Source: Modestobacter sp. Leaf380 (lineage in GTDB: Bacteria; Actinomycetota; Actinomycetes; Mycobacteriales; Geodermatophilaceae). Taken from it: a stretch of DNA of 64,000 nt. This document shows, piece by piece, positions 302 to 12,579 of this stretch. The translations under genes were made by a program, and so were the position numbers. The first letter of the stretch is position 1. Every line of letters starts with the position of its first letter. The notes below the pieces were generated by a model. It was not told the origin of the DNA. It ran no database searches and worked only from the letters and a program-made list of their open reading frames with translations. Where the stretch lies: contig NZ_LMQC01000019.1 of assembly GCF_001424485.1 (NCBI RefSeq), positions 124,001 through 188,000 on the forward strand. Direction: 5' to 3'.

Positions 302-1387
302 TCACCGCAGGTCGTCGTAGAGCCCCAGGTGGGCAGCGGCAGCGGCATCCCAGTCGTGCGCCCCCGCCAGCACCCGGCCCGCTCGGGCACGGGCCGGGTC
401 GCGGGTCCCGGCGGCGCTCACCAGCGCGTCGGCGAACCCCGGTGGGTCGACGGCGAAGGCGGCCGTGGCACCGAAGACCTCGCGCAGCACCGGCAGGTCC
501 CGGGTCACCACCGGCACCCCCGCGGCCAGGGCCTCCATCGCGGCCAGCCCGAAGCCCTCCTTGGTCGAGGGGAAGGCGAACACGGCCGCGCCGGCGACCA
601 GCGCGGGCAGCTCGTCGTGGTCGACCGGGCCCAGCACGACCGGCCGGACGCCGAGCTCCGCGGCCCGGGCATCGACCTCGGCCCGGTAGGTCCGGTAGTC
701 GAAGAGCGTCTCCCCGCCGGCGACGACGAGCTCGAGGTCGGGCCGCTGCCGGTGGACCAGGGCCATCGCCTCGACCAGGTCGCGGGTGCCCTTGCGCGGC
801 TCGATCCCGCCGACGGCCAGCACGTAGGCCCCCAGCCGGTCCCGCCACCGTCGTCGCCCGGCCGCGCCCGCCGGGCCGGCGGACCGGGCGAACCGGGCGG
901 CGTCCACGCCGTTGGGGATGACCGTGGCCACCCGACCCCAGCCGGTCGCCACCTCGGCGGCCACGGCGGCCGAGACGCAGACCAGTGCCCGCGGTTCGAC
1001 GACGGCCCGCTCGTGGCAGGCCGCGAGCTCCGGGGTGGTGAACACGTCCAGGTGGTGCACGGTGCGGACGCAGCCGGGCACGGCGTTGGCCGAGATGCAG
1101 TCCTGGGCGTGCACGACGTCGTAGGCCTCGTCCCGGAAGGCCGCGCCCAGCACCGCGATGGAACGCAGGATCCGCGCCCCGACGTCCTCACCCGGGACGT
1201 CGGGGAAGGGCACCAGTCGCAGGGTCACCCGGGGGTCGACGGCGCGGAAGAACGCGCTGTCCCCGCCGCGGCCCAGCGACCAGACGTCCACGTCGTGACC
1301 GGCCCGGGCCAGCGCCTCGGCCAACGCCAGGGTGTGCACGACCCCGCCGCGGGGCTTCGTCGAGTAGGTGAGCAGCGCGAGCCTCAC
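302..1387 (-). CDS. MSMEG_0565-type group 4 glycosyltransferase
   Basis: 361 aa GT-B fold glycosyltransferase. The N-terminus (LALLTYSTKPRGGVVHTLAL) carries the glycine-rich loop of the acceptor domain. The C-terminal half has the GT4 signature: GGIEPRKGTRDL near residue 195 and FPSTKEGFGLAAMEAL near 275, with the E-x7-E nucleotide-sugar site. This matches the MSMEG_0565 family found with the MSMEG_0568 radical SAM cluster; acceptor and sugar are not known to me. The GTG start at 1387 overlaps the stop of the upstream nitrilase (GTGA), so translation is probably coupled. It is the last clear member of a seven-gene coupled run. Confidence 0.88.
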   Translation of the reverse strand: MRLALLTYSTKPRGGVVHTLALAEALARAGHDVDVWSLGRGGDSAFFRAVDPRVTLRLVPFPDVPGEDVGARILRSIAVLGAAFRDEAYDVVHAQDCISANAVPGCVRTVHHLDVFTTPELAACHERAVVEPRALVCVSAAVAAEVATGWGRVATVIPNGVDAARFARSAGPAGAAGRRRWRDRLGAYVLAVGGIEPRKGTRDLVEAMALVHRQRPDLELVVAGGETLFDYRTYRAEVDARAAELGVRPVVLGPVDHDELPALVAGAAVFAFPSTKEGFGLAAMEALAAGVPVVTRDLPVLREVFGATAAFAVDPPGFADALVSAAGTRDPARARAGRVLAGAHDWDAAAAAHLGLYDDLR

Positions 1388-2199
1388 GAGTAGGCGTCCG
1401 GACGGCGCTCGCGCAGGTGGGACAGCACCAGCCGGGAACGGCTGACCTCGCCGGCGACGTCGAGGTCGGCGACGGCGAGACCGGCCTTGGCCCAGGTCCG
1501 GGCCAGCACGTCACCGCCGGGTCCGACCACCTTGGACTGGCCCAGGAACCGCAGTCGGCCCATCGTGCCGGTCTGGTTGGCCGAGACCACCACGACCTGG
1601 TTCTCCGCGGCCCGGGCGCAGTCGTAGAGGTCGAAGAGCCGGGACTGCCGGTCCTGCAGCAGCCGCGGCGCCCGGTCGGTCAGCGAGGCCGGCCACGCCG
1701 ACAGGCAGGCCAGCAGGTGGACGCCGTCCCCGGCGAGGGCGCGGGCGGCCTCGGGGAAGGTCTTGTCGTAGTCGACCAGCATGCCCAGCCGGCCGACCGG
1801 GGTGTCGAAGGCGGTGAACGCGTCACCGGCCGAGTAGGCGGCCACCTCGCCCGCGGGCTGGTGCACCTTGCGGTGCCTGCCCAGCACACCGTCCCCGGTC
1901 AGGCAGACGGCGCTGTTGAAGAACCGGCCGTCAGCGGCCTCGCGGTAGGCCAGGCAGACCACCGTCGGACCGGCCGCGGCGGCCACCCGGGCGAAGACCT
2001 CGTCGTCGGCGGCCAGCGCCGGCGGCAGCCCGGTCTCCCCCACCGCACCGAACCCGCCGAGGTAGCCGCCCAGCGTGGCGTCGGGGAAGACCAGCAGGTC
2101 CACCCCCTGTGCCCGGGCGTCGGAGGTGATGGCCTCCACCTTGGCCACGCAGGCGCCGACGTCCCGGCCGAAGTGCGCCGAGACCGCGGCGAGCCTCAC
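1384..2199 (-). CDS. carbon-nitrogen hydrolase (nitrilase superfamily), copy 1
   Basis: 271 aa. Family features are FPDATLGGYLGG near residue 42 (the glutamate of the nitrilase triad would normally sit in PEATLGGY; here the residue is D), HRKVHQP around 125 (catalytic Lys region) and LACLSAWP near 180 where the nucleophilic Cys is expected. Copy 2 in the same operon has the canonical PEATLGGY and VVCMSAWP. The Glu-to-Asp change and the replacement of ICYDKAFPEA by VDYDKTFPEA suggest altered activity. Start: GTG at 2199 overlaps the stop of the flavoprotein gene (GTGA); the same frame is open further upstream but there it overlaps that gene. Substrate unknown; nitriles or amides are expected from the family. 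Confidence 0.88.
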   Translation of the reverse strand: MRLAAVSAHFGRDVGACVAKVEAITSDARAQGVDLLVFPDATLGGYLGGFGAVGETGLPPALAADDEVFARVAAAAGPTVVCLAYREAADGRFFNSAVCLTGDGVLGRHRKVHQPAGEVAAYSAGDAFTAFDTPVGRLGMLVDYDKTFPEAARALAGDGVHLLACLSAWPASLTDRAPRLLQDRQSRLFDLYDCARAAENQVVVVSANQTGTMGRLRFLGQSKVVGPGGDVLARTWAKAGLAVADLDVAGEVSRSRLVLSHLRERRPDAYS

Positions 2200-3524
2200 G
2201 CCGTCCGGGACGCCGACGCCGCGGCGGCCGTGTCCGGTGCGCTGCCCAGCCCGGTGCGGGTACCCGCCGCCGTGAGCTCGGTGATCCGTTCGGCGACGAA
2301 CTCGGCGTCCCGGGCGATGCCGGCGAACCGGCCCGATCCCCAGGTGTGCAGCCACGGCAGCCCGAGCACGAAGAGCCCGGGCGCGGCGGTGACCCCACGG
2401 ACGTGGGTGGGGTACCCGGCGCCGTCGAAGACCGGCACGTCCACCCACGACCAGTCGGCCCGGAACCCGATCGCCCAGACCACGCTGCTGATCTCGGCGA
2501 CGTCGAGTGCGGTCGGGTCCTCGTGGGGTGCCCAGACCGGCACGTAGCGGGGCTCGGTGGGCGCGTCGATGCCGGCGGCGTCCACGTGCCGGTCGATGAC
2601 GTCCTTGGCGCTGTCGTCCACGGCGTCCGCGCGGTCCAGGTGCTCGGTCAGGTTCGGCGCGAAGGTGAGGGTCGTGCCGGCCAGCCCGGTGAGCGTGCCG
2701 TAGAGCCGCATGCCCTCCGCGGCGAACGTGCGCAGGTCGATGTCGCGGCCGCCGTCCCGGCCGGTGACGTAGTGGTTGGTGCCGACCCGGGCGGCCTCGC
2801 CGTCCCGGTGCTGCTCGACGGGCAGGTCGTAGTGGCCCATGTCGTGCAGCCAGGCGACGACGTCGCGGCCGCGGTACCGGCGCGCGATCCGGGGCGCGCT
2901 CCCCACCGCCAGGTGCACCCGGCGGCCGGCCAGGTGCAGGTCCTCGGCGATCTGCGCGCCGGACTGCCCGGTGCCGACGACGAGCACCTCGCCGTCGGGC
3001 AGCTGCCCGGGGTTCCGGTAGGCCTGCGAGTGCAGCTGGGTGATCCCGTCGGGCAGCGCCGAGGCGTAGGGCGGGACGACGGGCAGGTGGTAGCCGCCGA
3101 CGGCCAGCACGACCTGGTCGGCGTGCAGCTCCCCGGCGCTGGTGGCCAGCGTGTAGCCGCCCCCGGCGGCGGGGGCGAGCCGGGTGACGGCCACGCCCTC
3201 GTGCACCGGCGGGTCGAACGACGCCGCGTAGGACCGCACGTAGTCGACGATCTCCTCGCGCAGCATGAAGCCGTCGGGGTCGTCACCGGCGTACGGCCAG
3301 CCCGGGAGCTGGCACTGCCAGTTGGGCGTGACCAGGCAGAAGGTGTCCCAACGGGCGTCGACCCACTCGTGTGCGACGGTCTCCCGCTCCAGCACGACGT
3401 GCTCGACGCCGCGCTGGACCAGGTGCCAGCTGATCGACAGCCCGGCCTGGCCCCCGCCGACGACCGCGACCGGCACGTGTGCCGGCAGGCCGGTGCGGGT
3501 GCCGGCGGCCTCGGTGAGCGTCAT
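2196..3524 (-). CDS. MSMEG_0569-type flavin-dependent oxidoreductase
   Basis: 442 aa flavoprotein monooxygenase. The N-terminal dinucleotide site is VAVVGGGQAGLSISWHL (about residue 19). A second Rossmann motif, VLVVGTGQSGAQIAEDL near 175, should bind NAD(P)H. The C-terminus has IGFRADWSWVDVPVFDGAGY, typical of FMO/BVMO-like proteins. This fits the MSMEG_0569 family of the nitrogen-starvation cluster, thought to act on the product of the neighbouring radical SAM or nitrilase enzymes, although the substrate is unknown. It lies between two nitrilase genes and overlaps both by 4 bases (ATG at 3524, stop at 2196), which argues for coordinated synthesis. Confidence 0.9.
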   Translation of the reverse strand: MTLTEAAGTRTGLPAHVPVAVVGGGQAGLSISWHLVQRGVEHVVLERETVAHEWVDARWDTFCLVTPNWQCQLPGWPYAGDDPDGFMLREEIVDYVRSYAASFDPPVHEGVAVTRLAPAAGGGYTLATSAGELHADQVVLAVGGYHLPVVPPYASALPDGITQLHSQAYRNPGQLPDGEVLVVGTGQSGAQIAEDLHLAGRRVHLAVGSAPRIARRYRGRDVVAWLHDMGHYDLPVEQHRDGEAARVGTNHYVTGRDGGRDIDLRTFAAEGMRLYGTLTGLAGTTLTFAPNLTEHLDRADAVDDSAKDVIDRHVDAAGIDAPTEPRYVPVWAPHEDPTALDVAEISSVVWAIGFRADWSWVDVPVFDGAGYPTHVRGVTAAPGLFVLGLPWLHTWGSGRFAGIARDAEFVAERITELTAAGTRTGLGSAPDTAAAASASRTA

Positions 3525-4375
3525 GCCGGCACCGCCAGCCCGTAGGTCTCGGGACGGCGGTCCCGCAGGTGCCCCATCGACCGCCGCGCCCCGGCGAGCA
3601 CCTCGCCGACGTCGACGGTGGCGACCGCGGTCCCGGGCGCGACGCCGGTCGTGGCCAGCACGTCACCGCCCGGTCCGACCACCTTGGCGCTGCACACGAA
3701 GCGCAGCGAGCCGAAGGTGCCCGACTGGTTCGCCGACACCCAGACGATCTGGTTCTCCAGCGCCCGGGCCTGGTCGAACAGGTCGAACCGGCGGGTCCAG
3801 CGGTCCTCCGCCAGGTCGGCGGCAGCACCGGTCCGCGAGCCGGGCCAGGCCGACATGCAGACCACGATCTCGGCCCCGTCGACGGCCAGCGTGCGGGCCG
3901 CCTCGGGGAAGGCCTTGTCGTAGCAGATCATCATCCCGATCCGGCCGACCGGCGTCTGGAAGGCACGGAACCCGTCGCCGGCCGCGTAGGAGTTCGACTC
4001 CCCCAGCGGCTGGTGCACCTTGCGGTGCACGCCGAGGACGCCGTCCCCGGTGACGGCGACCGCGGTGTTGTACCGCCGGGTGCCGTCGGACTCGCAGAAC
4101 CCGGCGGTGACCACCACGTCGCCGGCGATCGCGGCCAGCCGGGCGACCTCGGGTCCGTCGACGTCCAGGGCGGGGGGCAGGGCGTGCTCAGGAAGCACCT
4201 CGGTCACGCCGTGGTCACCCAGGGATGCCAGGTACCCACCGAGGGTGGCCTCGGGCAGGGCCAGCAGGTGGACGCCGCGGGCCCGGGCGTCGTCCACCAG
4301 GGACTGGATCCGGGCAAAGGTGGCGTCGAGGTCGCGGCCGAACGGTGCGGCGACGGCGGCGAGCGTGGTGGTCAC
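3521..4375 (-). CDS. carbon-nitrogen hydrolase (nitrilase), Sll0784-like, copy 2
   Basis: 284 aa. It shows the full nitrilase triad context: LPEATLGGYLASLG (Glu, about residue 42), HRKVHQPLGE (Lys, about 134) and the expected Cys in VVCMSAWPGS (about 170), plus GMMICYDKAFPEAAR. Alignment by eye with copy 1 (1384-2199) shows clear paralogy, so the pair probably arose by duplication, with this copy retaining canonical residues. The GTG at 4375 overlaps the stop of the MSMEG_0567-like gene. In cyanobacteria and mycobacteria one such nitrilase accompanies the MSMEG_0567/0568 genes; two copies are less usual. The likely reaction is hydrolysis of a nitrile or amide to release ammonia. Confidence 0.9.
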   Translation of the reverse strand: MTTTLAAVAAPFGRDLDATFARIQSLVDDARARGVHLLALPEATLGGYLASLGDHGVTEVLPEHALPPALDVDGPEVARLAAIAGDVVVTAGFCESDGTRRYNTAVAVTGDGVLGVHRKVHQPLGESNSYAAGDGFRAFQTPVGRIGMMICYDKAFPEAARTLAVDGAEIVVCMSAWPGSRTGAAADLAEDRWTRRFDLFDQARALENQIVWVSANQSGTFGSLRFVCSAKVVGPGGDVLATTGVAPGTAVATVDVGEVLAGARRSMGHLRDRRPETYGLAVPA

Positions 4376-5841
4376 GAGCTCTCCTGGGGGTTGCCGGGTG
4401 GAGTGCCACGGCGCGGGATCTGCGTCCCTGCCACTCCACGGGAGGCGCCCAGACCGGTCACCGGACCGGTCAGGGCGGAGGTGGTGGAGCCGTCGGGCCA
4501 GCGCAGTCGCACGCCGGAGCCGGGGACGAGCTCGCCGCAGGTGCCGGTCGTCGCCGGCCCGGCGGGGGCGACGGCGCGGTCGGCGTCGTCGGTGGTGAGG
4601 AAGGCCGAGCCGGGGAAGCAGGTGAACCAGTCGCCGACGTTCGCAGCGTCCGGTCGGGGCACGGCCGCGACGTCCAGGACGGCGCCGCACCCGCTGGCCT
4701 CGGCGAGCATCCCCAGCGTCCCGACCAGGCCGGCCATCGAGACGTCCTTGGCCGCGGCGGGGGCGGTCCGGGCGACGACCGAGCCCATCAACTGCAGCTC
4801 GGCCGTCGTCCGGCCGGTGGTGGAGTCCCACTGCCGGCCGGTGGCACCGGGCCGCCAGTCCCCGCCGAGGTCGGCCGTCAGCCGGACCTGCTGGCCCGGT
4901 CGCCCGCCCGAGGCCGGGACCGGGCGGTCGGTACGACCCAGCGCGGTCACGCTCAACGCCGCGGGGACGCCGAGCTGGGTGTGCCCGCCGAGCACCGGCA
5001 CGCCCCAGGCCTGCGACCCGGCGCGCAGGCCGGCGACGACCCGGGCCGCGAAGGAGGCGTCCCGCGCGCCGACGGAGTCCAGCAGCCCGAGCGGGGCCGC
5101 ACCCATGGCGCTGAGGTCGTTGACGTTGACCAGCACGCCGCACCAGCCGGCCCAGCCCGGGTCGCGCTCGACCATCGAGGGCAGGATCGCGTCGCACGCG
5201 GCGACGACGTCGGTGCCCGGGACCGGGGCGCCGTCGTCGCCGACGAAGCCCGGGCCGCCCAGGTGCAGGCCGGCCAGCAGGCCGCCCAGCGGGGACTTCG
5301 TCGCCTGCGCCAGCGCGGCCAGCCGGCCGATCGGCCAGGTGACGGCGGTGTGCGGCCGCCCGGCGACCTCGGCGGGGCCGACGGTCAGCCAGCCGAGCCG
5401 GGTGAACATCGACACGAAGCGGTCCTGCACGGTCGCGTCGAAGCGCAGCGCCCCGGCCTGCTCGGCGCGGGCGCAGGCCGCGGCCACCAGGGCCGGCCCG
5501 GTGCCCGGTGCGCTGCCCGGGGCGACGACCAGGCGGGAACCGGTCCACCAGCCGACGTCCGGGCCGTCCGGGTCGGCGGGGGCGAGCCGCACGCCGCCCA
5601 GCACCTCGCCCGTTGTTCCACGTGCAACCAGGACGACGGTCCGCCCGTCCAGGTCGGTCGCGTCCAGGTCGGAGCCCGCGAAGAGGCCCTGGTCCTCGAC
5701 GAACGCCCGCCGCCGGAGCTGCTGGTGCGCCCGGACCCCGTCGTCGTCGGCCTGCTCGAGGCGCCATGCCGGCGGCACGGCGGGCAGCCGGTGGTCGACC
5801 AGCAGCACGTTGCGCTCGAGGGAGTCCACGGGCGCCCTCAT
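4372..5841 (-). CDS. MSMEG_0567-type GNAT plus AIR-synthase-related fusion
   Basis: 489 aa with two domains. Residues 1-160 resemble a GNAT acetyltransferase (RRRAFVEDQGLFAGSDLDATD, EVLGGVRLAP). Residues 170-480 resemble AIR synthase/PurM-like proteins (VNVNDLSAMGAAPLGLLDSV, GVPVLGGHTQLGVPAALSVTALG), with an ATP-binding Gly-rich region. This is the fused MSMEG_0567 architecture; in cyanobacteria the halves are separate genes. ATG at 5841 overlaps the radical SAM stop (ATGA), and its own stop overlaps the next nitrilase start. The long open frame upstream of 5841 lies inside the radical SAM gene and is not part of this gene. The product and reaction are unknown. Confidence 0.9.
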   Translation of the reverse strand: MRAPVDSLERNVLLVDHRLPAVPPAWRLEQADDDGVRAHQQLRRRAFVEDQGLFAGSDLDATDLDGRTVVLVARGTTGEVLGGVRLAPADPDGPDVGWWTGSRLVVAPGSAPGTGPALVAAACARAEQAGALRFDATVQDRFVSMFTRLGWLTVGPAEVAGRPHTAVTWPIGRLAALAQATKSPLGGLLAGLHLGGPGFVGDDGAPVPGTDVVAACDAILPSMVERDPGWAGWCGVLVNVNDLSAMGAAPLGLLDSVGARDASFAARVVAGLRAGSQAWGVPVLGGHTQLGVPAALSVTALGRTDRPVPASGGRPGQQVRLTADLGGDWRPGATGRQWDSTTGRTTAELQLMGSVVARTAPAAAKDVSMAGLVGTLGMLAEASGCGAVLDVAAVPRPDAANVGDWFTCFPGSAFLTTDDADRAVAPAGPATTGTCGELVPGSGVRLRWPDGSTTSALTGPVTGLGASRGVAGTQIPRRGTPPGNPQESS

Positions 5842-6902
5842 GCTCCGGCTGCCTGGAGCGCACTGCAGGCACCGCATGCCGCGCACCCGGCGCCCTGGTC
5901 GGCACCGCGCATGCCCAGCGCGCGCAGCCCCGCCGCGACCCGGGTGGTGACGTCCTCGAGCACCGCGGGGTCCGGGGGGCCGACGCCGTCGGCCACCGCC
6001 AGCGTGCCGGCGAGCGGGCGGTAGGGGACGACGAAGGGGTAGACACCGCGGCGGGCGAGGTCCAGCGCGCCGGCGACCAGCTCGTCGGGGTCCTCCCCCA
6101 GCCCGACCAGCAGGTAGGTCGAGACCCTGTTGCGCCCGAAGACGCGCACCGCCTCGTCCCACGCGGCGTCGTACTGGCTCATCGGCACGGTGGCCTTGCC
6201 GGGCATCCAGCGGGCCCGTACGTCGTCGTCCAGGGACTCGACGTGGATGCCGATCGCGGTGGCCCCGGCGTCCTTCAGCTCACCGATGGCATCCAGGTCC
6301 TGCGGGGCCGGCGGCTCGCACTGCACCTGGACCGGCAGCCCGGGCACCGCCGCGGTGACCGCCCGGACGCAGCGGGCCAGGTGCCGGGCGCCCCGGTCGC
6401 GGCCGTTGGTGGTGCCGGTGGTCATCACCATCTGCGCGACGCCGTCCAGCCGCACGGCGGCCTCGGCGACCTCGGCCAGCTGGGCCGGCGTCTTCACCGC
6501 GGTGGTCGACCCAGCCGTCAGCGAGGCCTCGATGGCGCAGAACCGGCAGCGGTCGGCCTCGTCGTACCGGATGCAGGTCTGCACGACGGTGGTGGCCAGG
6601 ACGTCCTTGCCGTGCAGCCGGGCCAGCTGCTCGTAGGGCACGCCGTCGGCGGTGGTGAGGTCGTAGAAGCGGGGGCGCTCGATGGCCTCGGCGTCGAAGC
6701 CGAGGTCGGCGCCGTCGAGCAGCAGCCGGCCGCCGCTGATCGAGTACGGGCTGTCGGCGTTGAGCGGCAGCGCCGTCCCCATGCCGTTGAGCAGGACGTG
6801 GCCGTCGTCGCTGGGGCCAGCCCCGGCCCGTCTCCGGACCGGGGCGTCGACCCGGACGCCGAGGATCGCGACGTCCACGCGGGTGCTCGTCGTCCGGGTC
6901 AT
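5838..6902 (-). CDS. radical SAM protein, MSMEG_0568 type
   Basis: 354 aa. The cluster-binding cysteines appear at about residues 97-110 in TCIRYDEADRCRFCAIE, i.e. CX8CX2C rather than the usual CX3CX2C. Radical SAM core features follow: MVMTTGTTNGRD, QCEPPAPQDLDAI, IGIHVESLDDDVRARW and YLLVGLGEDPDEL. The C-terminus adds a compact cysteine cluster, GCAACGACS, that could hold a second cluster. ATG at 6902 is preceded by an unrelated open frame and sits 11 bases after the MSMEG_0572-type gene stop. It belongs to a family marked by co-occurrence with nitrilase, flavoprotein and glycosyltransferase genes; the product is unknown. Confidence 0.9.
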   Translation of the reverse strand: MTRTTSTRVDVAILGVRVDAPVRRRAGAGPSDDGHVLLNGMGTALPLNADSPYSISGGRLLLDGADLGFDAEAIERPRFYDLTTADGVPYEQLARLHGKDVLATTVVQTCIRYDEADRCRFCAIEASLTAGSTTAVKTPAQLAEVAEAAVRLDGVAQMVMTTGTTNGRDRGARHLARCVRAVTAAVPGLPVQVQCEPPAPQDLDAIGELKDAGATAIGIHVESLDDDVRARWMPGKATVPMSQYDAAWDEAVRVFGRNRVSTYLLVGLGEDPDELVAGALDLARRGVYPFVVPYRPLAGTLAVADGVGPPDPAVLEDVTTRVAAGLRALGMRGADQGAGCAACGACSALQAAGA

Positions 6903-6913
6903 GGCCGCGCGAC

Positions 6914-7447
6914 TCAGAGGTTGTAGGTGCTGTTGATGATCGCGCCCTTGCGGGCGTAGTGGATGAGCGCGTCCTGCACGTCCAGCGGGTGGCAGGGGAT
7001 GCAGCCGGCGATCAGGTCCTCCTCGCGGAGGCCGTGCAGGCTCAGCCCGAAGCGGCAGACGTAGACCGTGCCGCCCTCCTCGATGAACTTCTCGATCTGG
7101 GAGTTGATGTTCTGCTCGCCCGGGAAGGCGGAGTCCCCGGTGGTCGGGAAGCCACGGGTGGCCATCGCGTTCATCGCGGCCGGGCCGTAGAAGTACAGGA
7201 CCGAGTCGTAGCCCTTGCGCAGCGCGCGCAGCGCCTGCAGGCACGCCACGAAGCTGACCGAGGACTCGTGCGCGATGCCGTGCACCAGGGTCAGGTAGCT
7301 CTCGCCCTCGCCGGCCTGGTAGTCCGGGAAGATCTTCGTCGAGCCGTAGAGGTTGCTGCCCTTGGGCAGCGAGGGGTGCGGGATCTCGGCGAGGCTGGCC
7401 TCCGCGTTGGCCTTGATCTCCTCGGGCGATGCGAGCGGGGTGGTCAC
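6914..7447 (-). CDS. MSMEG_0572/Sll0783-type nitrogen-starvation protein
   Basis: 177 aa soluble protein. Conserved-looking segments are LVHGIAHESSVSFVACLQAL, DSVLYFYGPAAMNAM and EEGGTVYVCRFGLSLHGL, reminiscent of the DsrE-like fold. The ending ALIHYARKGAIINSTYNL is typical of the family. The Synechocystis homologue Sll0783 is known to rise strongly on nitrogen starvation and to affect polyhydroxybutyrate accumulation. The GTG start at 7447 has a strong GGAGGA site about 6 bases upstream and is chosen over longer frames. The gene lies between the amidohydrolase and radical SAM genes, within the unit downstream of the GlnR-like box. Confidence 0.9.
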   Translation of the reverse strand: MTTPLASPEEIKANAEASLAEIPHPSLPKGSNLYGSTKIFPDYQAGEGESYLTLVHGIAHESSVSFVACLQALRALRKGYDSVLYFYGPAAMNAMATRGFPTTGDSAFPGEQNINSQIEKFIEEGGTVYVCRFGLSLHGLREEDLIAGCIPCHPLDVQDALIHYARKGAIINSTYNL

Positions 7448-7473
7448 AGGGTTCCTCCGTGGGTGTGGGTGGG

Positions 7474-8316
7474 TCAGGTCAGGCGGTGGAGCTGCTCGAA
7501 GTTGCGGCGGAAGACCAGGTCGGCGAGCTCGCCGTCCCCGGTCGCCGCCGCGAGGCGGGCGTGCTCGCCCGCGAAGTCGCCCCAGGGCTGGTCGGAGGCG
7601 AAGAGGACGCGGTCGTGGCCCGTGCCGTGCCGCTCGATCTCGGCGGCGAACCAGCGCGGGGCGAAGCCGATGGCCCAGCTGGTGTCGGTGTAGACGCGCT
7701 TGCCCCCGGCGACCCAGGCGAAGAACTTCTGGCCGATCAGCTTGATGTGGCCGCTCATCCCGCCGCCCATGTGCACCAGGTGCACGGCGACGTCGTCGGC
7801 GTACCGGTCGACCAGCAGGCCGACCTCGTCGATGTCGCTGGCCGCGCCCGGACTGGTGTGCACGTGGACGACGAGGTGGTGCTCGCGGGCCGCTGCGAAG
7901 ATGCTGTCCAGCTGCGGTCGGCAGGCCTCGTCGGTGGCCCGACCACCCAGCAGGAAGGACAGCTTGAGCGCGCTGACGCCCTGCTCCCCGGCCAACGCCA
8001 GCGCCTGCGCCGTGGCGTCGGCGTCCTGGGGGCGGGGGCTGGTCCACAACCCGGCCCGGATCCGCTCGTCGGTCTGGGCGGCCTCGACGACCAGCTCGTT
8101 GAGCGCGAAGGACGCCGTCGGGTCGGGCACGCCGTAGTTGGGGATGACCAGGGCGAACTCGGTGCCCTCGCGGTCCAGGTCGGCCTGCAGCTGGGCGATC
8201 GTGCCGCGCGCCGTGGTGTCCGGGTTGACCGGCGGGCCGCCGTAGAAGGGGTGAGCGGGCAGCACGCCGAGGTGGCGGTGCGCGTCGTGCACCCACTGCC
8301 GGGCCCCCGTGGTCAT
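7474..8316 (-). CDS. amidohydrolase (amidohydrolase_2-like, TIM barrel)
   Basis: 280 aa. Metal-ligand motifs are visible: VHDAHRHLG at the N-terminus (the H-x-H strand 1 pair), VVHVHTSPG near 128, VHLVHMGGG near 155 and the terminal aspartate in LFASDQPWGD near 238. This is the amidohydrolase_2 pattern of metal-dependent decarboxylases and hydrolases. It is the first gene of the nitrogen-starvation operon. ATG at 8316 lacks a convincing ribosome-binding site and is only 23 bases from the GlnR-like box, so a leaderless transcript is plausible. Substrate unknown; release of ammonia or CO2 from a small metabolite fits the context. Confidence 0.85.
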   Translation of the reverse strand: MTTGARQWVHDAHRHLGVLPAHPFYGGPPVNPDTTARGTIAQLQADLDREGTEFALVIPNYGVPDPTASFALNELVVEAAQTDERIRAGLWTSPRPQDADATAQALALAGEQGVSALKLSFLLGGRATDEACRPQLDSIFAAAREHHLVVHVHTSPGAASDIDEVGLLVDRYADDVAVHLVHMGGGMSGHIKLIGQKFFAWVAGGKRVYTDTSWAIGFAPRWFAAEIERHGTGHDRVLFASDQPWGDFAGEHARLAAATGDGELADLVFRRNFEQLHRLT

Positions 8317-8339
8317 GGGGAGAACGGTGGTCGCGCGCG

Positions 8340-8377
8340 GTTTCGGTGTGGTGACGTCCGGAACGAGATGTCGTTAC
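8340..8377 (-). promoter_or_regulatory. GlnR-like box upstream of the nitrogen-starvation operon
   Basis: On the minus strand the sequence reads GTAAC-N6-TCGTT-N6-GTCAC-N6-GAAAC, with the exact 5-6-5-6-5-6-5 spacing of actinobacterial GlnR sites (gTnAC-n6-GaAAC twice). The promoter-proximal half (GTCAC-CACACC-GAAAC) matches perfectly. In the distal half GTAAC matches, but TCGTT deviates from GAAAC. Its centre is about 42 bases before the amidohydrolase ATG, an activator-like distance if the transcript starts at or near the ATG. Confidence 0.65.
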
Positions 8378-8393
8378 GTGTGACGGGCTCCGG

Positions 8394-8436
8394 GGGGCCG
8401 TGCGTCTCGCCGGTGTTGCCGAGTACGCACGGCCCC
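8394..8436 (-). terminator. hairpin terminator after the toxin-like gene
   Basis: A 12-base-pair stem (GGGGCCGTGCGT pairing with ACGCACGGCCCC) surrounds a loop that contains a smaller CTCG/CGAG pairing. There is no U-tract, as is usual in high-GC actinobacteria. It lies between the end of the RHH/Doc-like pair and the GlnR-like box, so it would insulate the nitrogen operon from upstream transcription. Confidence 0.6.
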
Positions 8437-8452
8437 GCCCTCAGCCCTGCCC

Positions 8453-8815
8453 TCAGCCCCGCAGGGCCGCGGCGATCGCGCCGACGTCCTCGACCTTGCC
8501 GGTGACGATCGACGTCACCAGGGCGACCGCGGCCTCGTCGGAGATGCCGGCGGGCTCGTCCTCCATCGCCATCAGCGCGAGCGTCGCGGCCAGCGCGAAG
8601 GGCCGGTTGCCGTCCACCAACGGGAACGAGGTGGCCAGGGAGTGCAGCAGGGCCGCGCCCTTCTCGGGCACCGTCGGGTAGACCTCGACCCCCGCCGCGG
8701 TCGCCCGGGTCCGGGCCAGGGCGGCCACCAGCAGCCCTGCGTCACGCACCCGGACGTCCTCGCCGACCACCCGGGCGGCGATCTGCAGCAGGTCCTCGAC
8801 GGTCAGTCCCTCCAC
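8453..8815 (-). CDS. Doc/Fic-fold toxin-like protein with degenerate active motif
   Basis: 120 aa, the length of Doc toxins. LTVEDLLQIAARVVGE at the N-terminus and ALLHSLATSFPLVDGNRPFALAA near 65 match the Doc family, but where Doc has H-x-F-x-D-[GA]-N-K-R this protein reads F-P-L-V-D-G-N-R-P: the catalytic His is Phe and the following Lys-Arg is Arg-Pro. AMPylation or phosphorylation activity is therefore doubtful. GTG at 8815 overlaps the RHH gene by 13 bases. This could be a dead toxin, a specificity-shifted enzyme, or an immunity-like relic; the frame is otherwise intact with strong GC3. Confidence 0.78.
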   Translation of the reverse strand: MEGLTVEDLLQIAARVVGEDVRVRDAGLLVAALARTRATAAGVEVYPTVPEKGAALLHSLATSFPLVDGNRPFALAATLALMAMEDEPAGISDEAAVALVTSIVTGKVEDVGAIAAALRG

Positions 8816-9196: not shown

Positions 9197-10432
9197 GTGA
9201 CCCAGCCCGCCGTGCCCACCGAGGACGGCCGCCCGCCGTCCGGTGGCCGGCCGTGGCTGCGGCGCGTGCTGACCGGAGCCGTCCTGGGCCTCGGTTCGGC
9301 GGCCGCCCTCACCGCCCTCGCCGGACCCGCGGCCGCCGACGACCAGTCGCCCGCGGAAGACCCGGTCGCCACCCAGAGCGCGGCCCAGCCGGCACCCGGG
9401 GACGGGCCGTCACCCGCCGACGCCGACCCGGGCGCGGTCCCGGACGCGGCCACCACCAGCCTCCCGGTCGATCCGACGGCCCCAGCCGACCCCGGGTCCG
9501 CACCAGGGTCCGTGGACGACGTGTCCGCCGCGACGGCGCCGGCCGGCGACCCACCACCCGCCGACGAGCCCGGGGACGGCGACGGCGACGGCGCCACGAC
9601 CGACACGACCCCGACCGGCGCGGCATCGTCCGCCGTCACCACCACCGCGGCCGTCCTCGACGGGGACACGGCGGTGGCCCCTGCCGACCCGACCCCGGAC
9701 ACCACCGGGACCACCACCACCGGGACCACCACGACCGCCGGCACCCCGTCGACCGCGGGTCCCTCGACGGCGGGTCCCTCGACCTCGGGTCCGCCGACCG
9801 AGGACCCGACCGCCGGCACCGCGACGGCCCCGGCCACCGACGACACCCCGGCCGAGGCCGACGGCGAACCCCGCACCGTCGACGGCGCCGCCGGGTCGAC
9901 CGCCACCCCAGCCGCGGACGGCACCGTGACGGCATCCGACACAGCGACCGCGGACGGCGCCCTGCCGGTCGCCGTCGCCGGCACCGCGGTCGACCCCGGC
10001 GTGCACTGCCTGGCCCCCGCCGGCACCGCCGCCGCGGCGGGTCCCGCCGGCGGCGCCTGGTCGGCTGCGGCCGGCGCCGAGCGCGGGGCCCGCCCGACGC
10101 ACGCCGGCACCACCGCCACCGCACTGACCGAGTCCGCCCAGCTGCTGCCCACCCCGGCCGGCTCCGCGGTGCCCGCCGGCGCGGACACCGGCCTCCCCCT
10201 GGTCCCCCTCGCCCCGGTGCCCGGCAGCCCGGAGGCCCCCGTGGCCGTCTCGGCCGGGTGCAGCACCAGCAGCGCCGGGACCACCGGCAGCGGCCCGGTC
10301 GGCGCCCCCAGCGTCGTCGTCCCGCACCCCCCGTCGTCGGCCCTGCTGGCCGGCACCGCCACCGCGCGCAGCCTCGCCGCCGTGGCCCCGGTCGTCGCCG
10401 TCGCCGACGACCCCAGCGCCCGCCCCGACTGA
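9197..10432 (+). CDS. secreted low-complexity Ala/Thr/Pro-rich protein
   Basis: 411 aa from GTG 9197. Residues 1-48 form a signal peptide: RPWLRRVLTGAVLG, a hydrophobic Ala/Leu core and AGPAAADD at the cleavage region. The rest is almost entirely A, T, P, D, G and S, with repeated STAGPSTAGPSTSGPP and TTTTGTTTTAG stretches, as in surface stalks or O-mannosylated actinobacterial exoproteins. Only two cysteines are evident (VHCLAP and AGCSTS). No sorting signal or catalytic domain is seen. Codons in this frame end in G or C almost throughout, which supports this frame over the long antisense frames. It sits just upstream of an LAxTG surface protein on the same strand. Confidence 0.75.
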   Translation: MTQPAVPTEDGRPPSGGRPWLRRVLTGAVLGLGSAAALTALAGPAAADDQSPAEDPVATQSAAQPAPGDGPSPADADPGAVPDAATTSLPVDPTAPADPGSAPGSVDDVSAATAPAGDPPPADEPGDGDGDGATTDTTPTGAASSAVTTTAAVLDGDTAVAPADPTPDTTGTTTTGTTTTAGTPSTAGPSTAGPSTSGPPTEDPTAGTATAPATDDTPAEADGEPRTVDGAAGSTATPAADGTVTASDTATADGALPVAVAGTAVDPGVHCLAPAGTAAAAGPAGGAWSAAAGAERGARPTHAGTTATALTESAQLLPTPAGSAVPAGADTGLPLVPLAPVPGSPEAPVAVSAGCSTSSAGTTGSGPVGAPSVVVPHPPSSALLAGTATARSLAAVAPVVAVADDPSARPD

Positions 10433-10459
10433 CCCGGTCGCCCGCGCGCCTCGCCCCGT

Positions 10460-10478
10460 CCCCGCTGTGTCCGCGGGG
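10460..10478 (+). terminator. short hairpin after the secreted protein gene
   Basis: CCCCGC and GCGGGG arms with a 7-base loop lie about 30 bases after the stop at 10432. The stem is short, so this is a weak candidate. The remaining 200 bases up to the next start hold no other structure that I can see. Confidence 0.35.
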
Positions 10479-10683
10479 GGCACACCACGACGGGCGACCC
10501 GGCAGGCAGAACCGGACTGCCTCCCGGACCGCGCACACGGCCCCGCCCACCGAGCACCGCTCGGGACGCCGGCACCACGGGTTCGCGCCACCCACGGGGG
10601 CTCGACCGCACCACCCCGCAGCACCCATCCCGCACCACCGTTCGTGCGCAACGACGCACACAGCGCGAAGGAAAACGTCACAG

Positions 10684-12579
10684 ATGAAGCGAACAGTGCG
10701 CAACGGCCTCGCCGTCGCGACGATGGCCGGAGGGCTCTTCCTCCTCGGCCAGGCAACCGCCAGCGCGGAGGACGTCAGCGCGACGTCCGAGGCCGTCGGC
10801 TCGACCTCGGTCACCGTCGTCGACGTCGGCACCGCCGCCGGGGGCGGCGAGGCCGTGGGCAACACGGCCAGCAACTCCGGTGACGTCACCGGCGGGGACG
10901 GCGACAACTCCGGCTCCGCCACCAGCTCGGCCACCACGGTCGTGGCCTCGGTGGACGTGCACAGCGACGGCAACTCCTCGCCCACCACCAGCTCAGGGCC
11001 GGCGACCAACACCAGCGACGGCGGGAACGGCGGGGCGGCCACGAACACCACCACCGCCACCGGCGACACCACGGCGGGAGGCGGCACCGCGACCGGCGCC
11101 GACGTCGACGCCAGCTCCGAGTCCGTCGGCGGCGGCGGCTCCTCCGAGGGCGGAGCCGGGGGCGGCGCGGTGACGGCGGTCGACGCACCGACCGTCGCCG
11201 GCGGCGGCGAGGCGGTCGGCAACGAGGCCGACAACAGCGGCGACGTGACCGGTGGGGACGGCGACAACTCCGGTGCGGCCACCAGCGGGGCCGGCGGGCT
11301 CGTCCTGTGCGCGAACGTGCACAGCGACGACGACTGCAACCCGGAGACCTCGTCCGGGGCGGCCACCAACACCAGCACCGGCGGCAACGGCGGGGCGGCC
11401 GGCAACACCACCACCGCCAGCGGCACCACCAGCGCGGGCGGCGGCACGGCGACCGGCTCGGACGTCGACGCCTCCTCCGAGAGCGTGGACCTCAGCGCGT
11501 TCCTGGAGTGGCTGGCCGGCCACCTCGGCGGCCAGCAGGGCACCGGTGGCTCCGGGGGCGCCGGGGCCGGGACCGTCGTCTACGCCCCGACCGCGGCCGG
11601 CGGCGGGACGGCGACCGGCAACACCGCCGTCAACAGCGGGGACGTGACCGGTGGGGACGGCTGGAACAGCGGCTCCGCGGACAGCAGCGCCACCGTCTAC
11701 GTCGTCTGCTTCAACTACAAGAGCGACATGAACTGCAACCCGGTGACCACCACCGGGCCGGCCACGAACACCAGCACCGGGGGCAACGGCGGGAACGCCG
11801 CGAACAACACCTCGGCGTCGGGCAGCACCTCGGCCGGTGGCGGCAAGGCCGTCGGCGGCGGGGTCTCCGGCAGCTCGGAGTCCGTGGGCGGTGGCGGCGC
11901 GGGCACCCTGGTCATCGCCCCGACCGTGGCCGGCGGCGGCAGCGCCGAGGGCCAGTACGTGCACAACAGCGGCAACGTCACCGGCGGCAACGGCCACAAC
12001 AGCGGCTCCGCCACCAGCAGCGCCACCGTCTACGTCATCTGCTTCAACTACAAGAGCGACAACAACTGCAACCCGGTGACCACCACCGGCGCCGCCACCA
12101 ACACCAGCACCGGCGGCAACGGCGGCTCCGCCACCAACGGCACCTCGGCCTCGGGCAACACCTCGGCCGGCGGTGGCTGCGCGGTGCACGCCGCCGGCGG
12201 CTGCCCGGTCGACCACGTGGCGCAGCCGGGCACCCCGGCCCACCCGGGCACCCCGGCCCAGCCCGGCACCCCGGCGCACCCGGAGACCCCGGCTGCCCCG
12301 GCCGCCCCGGTCGTCCACCCGGCGGCCCCGGCCGTCGCGCCGGTCGCCGTCCACCCGGTCGCCGTCGTCCACCCGGTCACCGTCGTCCACCCGGCCTCGG
12401 CCGCGGCGGTCCACACGGTCACCACCGGCTACACGCCCGTCGCCGCCGGCTCGTCCTCGGACTCGCTGGCCTACACCGGTGCCGACCTCGCCGCCCCGCT
12501 GTCCCTGGGCCTGCTGGCCCTGGGCGCCGGTCTCGGCCTGTCGCTGGTCTCGCGCCGGCGTCAGCTGCAGGAGGTCTGA
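10684..12579 (+). CDS. repeat-containing surface protein with LAxTG-type sortase signal
   Basis: 631 aa. Signal peptide MKRTVRNGLAVATMAGG...ASAE. The body holds four imperfect repeats starting at about residues 53, 173, 306 and 417, each with GGG-x-A-x-GN, NSG(D/N)VTGG(D/N)G and TNTSTGGNGG blocks. Repeats 2-4 contain a C-x8-C loop (CANVHSDDDC, CFNYKSDMNC, CFNYKSDNNC); repeat 1 lacks both cysteines. A His/Pro/Ala/Val-rich spacer (about 510-585) precedes LAYTGAD (residue 595), a hydrophobic segment and RRRQLQEV. LAxTG is the class E sortase signal of high-GC actinobacteria, so cell-wall anchoring is likely. ATG is supported by AAGGAAAA upstream. Role unknown; a repetitive wall or aerial-structure protein is a reasonable guess. 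Confidence 0.85.
   Translation: MKRTVRNGLAVATMAGGLFLLGQATASAEDVSATSEAVGSTSVTVVDVGTAAGGGEAVGNTASNSGDVTGGDGDNSGSATSSATTVVASVDVHSDGNSSPTTSSGPATNTSDGGNGGAATNTTTATGDTTAGGGTATGADVDASSESVGGGGSSEGGAGGGAVTAVDAPTVAGGGEAVGNEADNSGDVTGGDGDNSGAATSGAGGLVLCANVHSDDDCNPETSSGAATNTSTGGNGGAAGNTTTASGTTSAGGGTATGSDVDASSESVDLSAFLEWLAGHLGGQQGTGGSGGAGAGTVVYAPTAAGGGTATGNTAVNSGDVTGGDGWNSGSADSSATVYVVCFNYKSDMNCNPVTTTGPATNTSTGGNGGNAANNTSASGSTSAGGGKAVGGGVSGSSESVGGGGAGTLVIAPTVAGGGSAEGQYVHNSGNVTGGNGHNSGSATSSATVYVICFNYKSDNNCNPVTTTGAATNTSTGGNGGSATNGTSASGNTSAGGGCAVHAAGGCPVDHVAQPGTPAHPGTPAQPGTPAHPETPAAPAAPVVHPAAPAVAPVAVHPVAVVHPVTVVHPASAAAVHTVTTGYTPVAAGSSSDSLAYTGADLAAPLSLGLLALGAGLGLSLVSRRRQLQEV
10840..12177 (+). repeat. four tandem coding repeats (333-399 bp)
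   Basis: Units begin at about 10840, 11200, 11599 and 11932, giving spacings of 360, 399 and 333 bases. Repeats 3 and 4 are closest to each other at DNA level (the segment from the Cys loop through the ACCACC run is nearly identical at 11700-11760 and 12033-12090). Unit 4 is shorter. They encode the Asn/Ser/Gly/Thr-rich body of the surface protein. Confidence 0.8.

Follow-up and report, generated by a model that had tools for sequence, protein, structure and literature searches.

What switches on the closely packed operon of nitrogen-starvation-response genes at one end of a 64,000-nucleotide stretch of Modestobacter sp. Leaf380 (contig NZ_LMQC01000019.1, positions 124,001 to 188,000; hereafter the window), and is it the regulator GlnR? 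An earlier note, made from the letters alone, had placed a GlnR-like box ahead of this operon, and its site and all its spacings were borne out when the minus strand was read directly: GTAACgacatcTCGTTccggacGTCACcacaccGAAAC (8377-8340) has the order GTAAC-N6-TCGTT-N6-GTCAC-N6-GAAAC, with three out of three spacers of 6 bases. The site is confirmed as real, in its exact sequence and as a conserved promoter element, and we estimate at about 85% the probability that it forms the core of a GlnR-activated promoter, from which a leaderless messenger RNA (mRNA) of eight genes would be transcribed under nitrogen limitation. Its parts are listed here, the counts referring to the loci and promoters described below:

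8373-8377, minus strand: unit 1, an a-site, GTAAC (AC at the fourth and fifth bases in 50/78 loci of the motif-iterated alignment, and in 44/78 with an anchor that ignores unit 1)
8360-8366, minus strand: unit 2, TCGTTCC, a conserved element unlike the GlnR b-site, consensus nTnTTCC (from the counts of TT and GAAAC in nit and glnA1 promoters)
8351-8355, minus strand: unit 3, an a-site, GTCAC, followed by a conserved CA (from sequence, profile and alignment)
8340-8344, minus strand: unit 4, a b-site, GAAAC (from sequence and profile; GACAC in most close relatives)
8324-8329, minus strand: putative -10 hexamer CACCGT, exactly 10 bases past the b-site, its last T kept across loci
8314-8316, minus strand: ATG start codon and predicted transcription start of a leaderless mRNA (from start-codon spacing)

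Units 3 and 4 are an exact pair of a-site (gTnAc) and b-site (GaAAc) with a 6-base spacer, so the perfect match that the earlier note had seen in the promoter-proximal half holds, while the upstream pair in the same register is incomplete, with an a-site at unit 1 and TCGTT at the b-site position. The gap between the site and the ATG of the first gene, an amidohydrolase, is 23 bases, the b-site ending 24 bases before the A. The pattern GTNAC-N6-GAAAC has one match in the window, with 0.09 expected from dinucleotide shuffling and at least one match in 9 of 100 shuffles; the three-unit pattern, with unit 2 left free, has one exact match, and two when up to two mismatches are allowed, against 0.38 expected. 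By itself the half-site is only mildly improbable, several being expected by chance in the 4.76-megabase genome, and the site is significant because of its position and conservation, not because of half-site rarity.

Conservation was measured on loci fetched with NitB, the product of the second gene (the best 80 of 280 relatives, hence no distant ones), which with the window made 81, of which 78 were counted after L024, L047 and L070 had been dropped for too little upstream sequence. With at most one mismatch and on either strand, GTNAC-N6-GAAAC was present in 55/78 upstream regions versus 208/3,790 control chunks, and the exact pattern in 11/78 (three of them on the other strand) versus 0/3,790; at the finally aligned site, on the operon strand throughout, the numbers were 48/78 and 8/78. 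When the window was aligned with L001-L013, the counterpart of 8377-8340 was the main conserved block ahead of the start codon. An iterated profile gave the general form G(T/A)nAC-N6-(T/G)TnTTCC-N4-G(T/A)nACCA-N4-GAAAC-N10-TnnACT, which is circular by construction; a gap-free alignment holds for 38 of the sites. When the profile was trained without the family under test, 73/78 regions exceeded the 99th percentile of 780 controls, so the box is indeed kept upstream of orthologous operons, the feature on which the earlier note had staked it, and the window site reached 28.0 bits, the 99th percentile of the controls being 1.1. The top control value, 30.9, was itself a second nit promoter (L076), and the count of regions above all controls (39/78) was set aside. 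A family-left-out scan of 1,545,285 bases returned 92 matches above 8 bits: 71 ahead of cluster heads, the window site, 13 at second transcription units and seven elsewhere, 85 of the 92 thus marking the start of a nit transcription unit. The 13 second promoters belong to split clusters (six Rathayibacter, L031, L050 and five Williamsia), and a separate copy for each transcription unit is found in L017, L021, L037, L038, L049 and L069 (Rathayibacter) and in L051, L057, L058, L063 and L076 (Williamsia). A mycobacterium, Mycolicibacterium palauense (L071), also carries the motif, 125 bases ahead of nitB.

The second sample consisted of 30 loci from genomes of the same order (the window, seven repeats and 22 new loci), and the profile used to score the new ones was built from 35 loci of other families. 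A cluster gene was present in 36 of 200 genomes of the order, and the cluster is therefore patchy. The motif stood at 13 of the 22 new loci, with at least 16.7 bits and 85-114 or 900-1,077 bases ahead of nitB. The remaining nine, negative at first, have another leading gene, mostly an oxidoreductase: it precedes the amidohydrolase gene in seven of them, a hydrolase and an oxidoreductase precede nitB in L171, and in L160 the oxidoreductase in front is visible only in a longer stretch. All eight loci that were extended had their best match, of 12.5-46.8 bits (second best at most 3.0), 63-578 bases ahead of the oxidoreductase; for L171 the stretch ends after 99 bases at a contig end. Overall, the motif occurs in 21/22 new loci, in eight of them before a different leading gene, and since it lies ahead of whichever gene leads, the promoter follows the operon head. 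Conservation merely from close kinship was considered and rejected through the family-left-out and held-out tests.

Within the genome, the site stands apart. A 54-position profile of 38 relatives, the window itself outside them, gave it E=1.1e-7 genome-wide and the next candidate 0.11, in a search that scored 150 of 2,256 first-look candidates and that is not genus-independent, two of the 38 being Klenkia. The genome encodes one GlnR (PF21695, 136.9 bits), whose best PDB matches are 8hih and 8hig and whose first domain best matches the GlnR entries 4o1i and 4o1h.

The layout of the promoter is that of glnA1. Among the best 30 glnA1 loci from 60 genomes of the class, this genome included, 25 have GTAAC-N6-GAAAC-N6-GaCAC-N6-GAAAC, with variants; exactly 10 bases lie beyond the last unit before the hexamer, which is TAnnnT in 24 of the 25, a distance partly selected for, given that the register score rewards TAnnnT at that position (and not units 1 and 2). 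The genome's own glnA1 reads GTAAC-GAAAC-GACAC-GCAAC-N10-TAGCTT, the window GAAAC-N10-CACCGT; units 1, 3 and 4 and the distance to the hexamer are common to nit and glnA1 promoters, in this genome too, as are the 11-base units and the order a-site-N6-b-site. They differ in that glnA1 has GAAAC or GCAAC at unit 2 and a TAnnnT hexamer, whereas nit promoters mostly have nTnTTCC and a hexamer ending in ACT (52/78 loci; here CACCGT). Compared with the a-b-a-b GlnR box of Streptomyces coelicolor, one complete pair (units 3 and 4) is present here and the second pair is incomplete, a difference that concerns the double-box form alone, GlnR sites of one pair being known as well. The last T of the hexamer is kept in 75/78 loci of the motif-iterated alignment and in 50/57 anchored on units 3 and 4 only. 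Thirty amtB loci had mixed registers and were left unused. The distance to the hexamer is much the same in PhoB promoters of E. coli.

Where an amidohydrolase or radical SAM gene heads the operon, 39/41 loci have an in-frame start codon at base 23 or 24 past the b-site, taken as the first codon in frame with the head gene between bases 19 and 30; the two misses (L054 and L064) do have an ATG at base 24, which the frame test did not accept. Such a position would imply a leaderless mRNA. The same arrangement is seen at a glnA-like gene of this genome (GTAAC-N6-GACAC-N10-GAGGAT, with ATG at base 24, an in-frame ATG at base 15 being also possible). The promoter profile also matches weakly (E=0.33) directly ahead of a nitrate-reductase-like gene (L191, G000:C8:32906), where inspection by eye shows N10 again and, at base 23, a GTG. 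Also by eye, a short inverted repeat, GTAGC...GCTAC, just past the predicted start point, opens the leader before nitB in four Gordonia loci (L055, L059, L060 and L065).

The earlier note suggested that direct GlnR control of such a cluster had not been described in actinobacteria, which is not borne out: MSMEG_0565-0572 of Mycobacterium smegmatis is a direct GlnR target, with a peak 4 upstream of MSMEG_0572 in chromatin immunoprecipitation sequencing and a 263-fold change (PMC3662644), GlnR shifts DNA of the cluster in gels (PMC4222082), and the eight-gene operon, named gpr, confers peroxide resistance, is induced more than 500-fold in a GlnR-dependent manner and has been mutated (PMC6039565). 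GlnR sites in M. tuberculosis lie at -37 (glnA1) and -30 (glnA2) (PMC4950008), which is close to the distance proposed for the window site; transcripts from GlnR/NnaR promoters of M. smegmatis show leaderless features and begin past the GlnR motif (PMC6277429), as is predicted for the present one; and GlnR boxes of a single pair and other variants are known (PMC10704036, PMC5826061). Among the papers listed by term searches we noticed none that places this cluster under GlnR in bacteria other than mycobacteria; the unit 2 sequence was not searched for. The regulation itself is, then, already known from a relative, and what the present locus would add is a promoter subtype and a likely leaderless start.

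The sequence, its spacing and conservation, the layout in common with glnA1 and the GlnR gene of the genome are observed directly; that GlnR binds here, that it activates and does not repress, and where the -10 hexamer and the start point lie are what we infer, the support for GlnR being comparative. Under nitrogen limitation, GlnR would bind at least units 3 and 4 (GTCAC-N6-GAAAC, at about -39 to -24), over a poor -35 region, and probably also unit 1, and would recruit RNA polymerase in the manner of a PhoB-type activator. Transcription would begin with the A of the amidohydrolase ATG, or with a base beside it, and yield a leaderless mRNA of the eight genes (302-8316). GlnR control, shown in one mycobacterium, appears to be ancestral to the cluster, or to travel with it, in many actinobacteria; it would tie the enigmatic chemistry of the cluster to nitrogen scarcity, and provides a sharply defined promoter to test.

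Several observations weigh against this account. TCGTT, at unit 2 of the window, is no match to the b-site GaAAc. The five loci under the control threshold are Frankia and Pseudofrankia, with units 1-3 degenerate, though GAAAC is retained in them, as is a GTG at base 23/24. The partial selection of the glnA1 distance weakens the comparison of geometries, and in-frame starts at bases 19-30 were found in 0/37 of the 29 nitB-headed and eight divergent loci, where a leader is likely, so a leaderless start would not be general. The idea that the same promoter drives the detached MSMEG_0570 family gene of this genome, which lies outside the cluster on another contig (L148, G000:C12:707378; 107.2 bits), was rejected, the motif being absent there. 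Among the published results, no obvious pattern was seen to connect the places of GlnR site and start site with whether a gene is activated or repressed (PMC4950008), and MtrA is reported to have a nearly identical motif (PMC6277429).

One further reading refines the GlnR promoter and is no true alternative to it: GlnR plus a second factor, or an inverted half-site, at unit 2, making a dedicated composite promoter and not a plain double box. With an anchor of units 3, 4 and the -10 that ignores unit 2, TT is found at unit 2 in 54/78 nit promoters versus 0/30 glnA1, and GAAAC or GCAAC in 0/78 versus 25/30; TT occurs in at least one locus of 28/37 genus labels. That anchor replaced one of units 3 and 4 only, which had misregistered glnA1 (the first pair matched best) and which gave TT in 37/57 nit loci and in 7/28 on the reverse strand, with real divergent promoters among these. 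Even in the iterated alignment TT is missing from 17/78 loci, including Frankia, Pseudofrankia and Quadrisphaera. Unit 2 is in most loci, on these counts, a different conserved element and not a decayed b-site, so the picture of a double box whose second unit is simply weak does not hold; judged by its conservation, nTnTTCC is functional, and its composition, free of GAAAC/GCAAC in nit promoters unlike in glnA1, appears new to us. On the opposite strand it reads GGAAnA, which looks like a b-site. Upstream of gpr, a SoxR box whose effect is modestly negative has been reported (PMC6039565), and would agree with a second factor; no DNA-binding regulator is found among the nine proteins scanned, no wider search having been made, and unit 2 would be explained equally well if the alpha subunit of the polymerase made an A/T-rich contact there. 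No NnaR palindrome was noticed in the conserved block, inspected by eye in the alignment with L001-L013 only. A composite promoter of this kind is possible, and we lean against it. The broader proposal, that the cluster has a GlnR promoter subtype of its own, conserved in many actinobacteria and standing ahead of the transcription unit, or of each one, where the cluster is rearranged, with the second GlnR unit replaced by nTnTTCC, is put forward tentatively, at somewhat below even odds; nTnTTCC would then hold a GlnR protomer in inverted orientation, make a fixed contact with the alpha subunit or be the site of a second regulator. In the last case, if true, the cluster would answer to nitrogen and to another signal, and in any case the odd unit 2 may offer a way into the arrangement of GlnR protomers on DNA, or to a missing co-regulator.

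Another response regulator of the OmpR family, most likely MtrA, might be the main binder of the direct repeats, with nitrogen control indirect or shared. In spite of the likeness of its motif, this reading has to face the GlnR dependence of the M. smegmatis cluster, with its induction and gel shift (PMC6039565, PMC4222082), and the fact that promoters of the same layout here precede nitrogen genes (glnA1, the glnA-like gene and, by eye, the nitrate-reductase-like gene), in a genome not searched for MtrA; we consider it improbable. GlnR might also repress, the box being near the start codon, with the b-site ending 24 bases before the A of the ATG, and GlnR is reported in both roles (PMC3662644); the glnA1-like layout and the strong positive control described for the orthologous M. 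smegmatis cluster (PMC3662644, PMC4222082, PMC6039565) make this very improbable. Chance resemblance, despite several half-sites expected per genome, is practically discounted by the conservation, the position and the genome-wide E-value obtained with the relatives' profile.

The operon that GlnR would activate has eight packed genes (302-8316), each of which, from the MSMEG_0567 family gene onward and with the starts chosen, overlaps its predecessor. In order of transcription, with Nit names after PMC9716671, these genes and the hairpin ahead of the promoter are:

8394-8436, minus strand: strong hairpin, a probable terminator, separating the Fic gene upstream from the promoter (8378-8452 folds at -52.2 kcal/mol, z -5.69)
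7474-8316, minus strand: amidohydrolase (Amidohydro_2), first gene (PF04909, 61.7 bits)
6914-7447, minus strand: MSMEG_0572/Sll0783 family nitrogen starvation response protein, NitB (TIGR04044, 239.4 bits, cut-off 109.85)
5838-6902, minus strand: MSMEG_0568 family radical SAM protein, NitD (TIGR04043, 497.6 bits, cut-off 303.7)
4372-5877, minus strand: MSMEG_0567 family protein, an N-acetyltransferase domain fused to an AIR-synthase-like domain, NitE+NitF (TIGR04050, 478 bits, and TIGR04045, 71.5 bits, both above cut-off; start codon our choice)
3521-4375, minus strand: carbon-nitrogen hydrolase 1 (PF00795, 136.7 bits; Nit6803 model 49.6, cut-off 502.6)
2196-3524, minus strand: MSMEG_0569 family flavin-dependent oxidoreductase, NitH (TIGR04046, 651.4 bits, cut-off 498.35)
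1384-2199, minus strand: carbon-nitrogen hydrolase 2 (PF00795, 107.8 bits; Nit6803 model 32.9 bits)
302-1387, minus strand: MSMEG_0565 family glycosyltransferase, last operon gene seen (TIGR04047, 459.9 bits, cut-off 259.85)

The likeness to gpr is extensive: the families 0572, 0568, 0567, 0569 and 0565 all score above their curated cut-offs and carbon-nitrogen hydrolases are present. Unlike in gpr, the leading gene of the present operon codes for an amidohydrolase and the MSMEG_0570 family gene sits at another place in the genome; a leaderless start is predicted, whereas the box of the relative L071 stands well ahead of nitB. The NitB, NitD, NitE/F and NitH families are also those of the Nit1C cluster for cyanide/nitrile assimilation, from which the operon differs in having no protein of the Nit6803 (NitC) nitrilase family; the scores of both carbon-nitrogen hydrolases, far under the Nit6803 cut-off, do not support the word nitrilase used for this operon at first. 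The nearest named relatives are Klenkia, NitB being 99% identical to that of K. terrae.

Just 5' of the operon lies a gene with a Fic/Doc domain (8453-8815, minus strand), of which no counterpart was found in the 80 related loci fetched. Farther on, the plus strand holds a long frame rich in Gly, Ser, Thr and Asn (9253-12579), the later part of which, by eye, holds repeats and a stretch resembling a signal peptide and ends in a hydrophobic C-terminus, and which is perhaps a surface protein.
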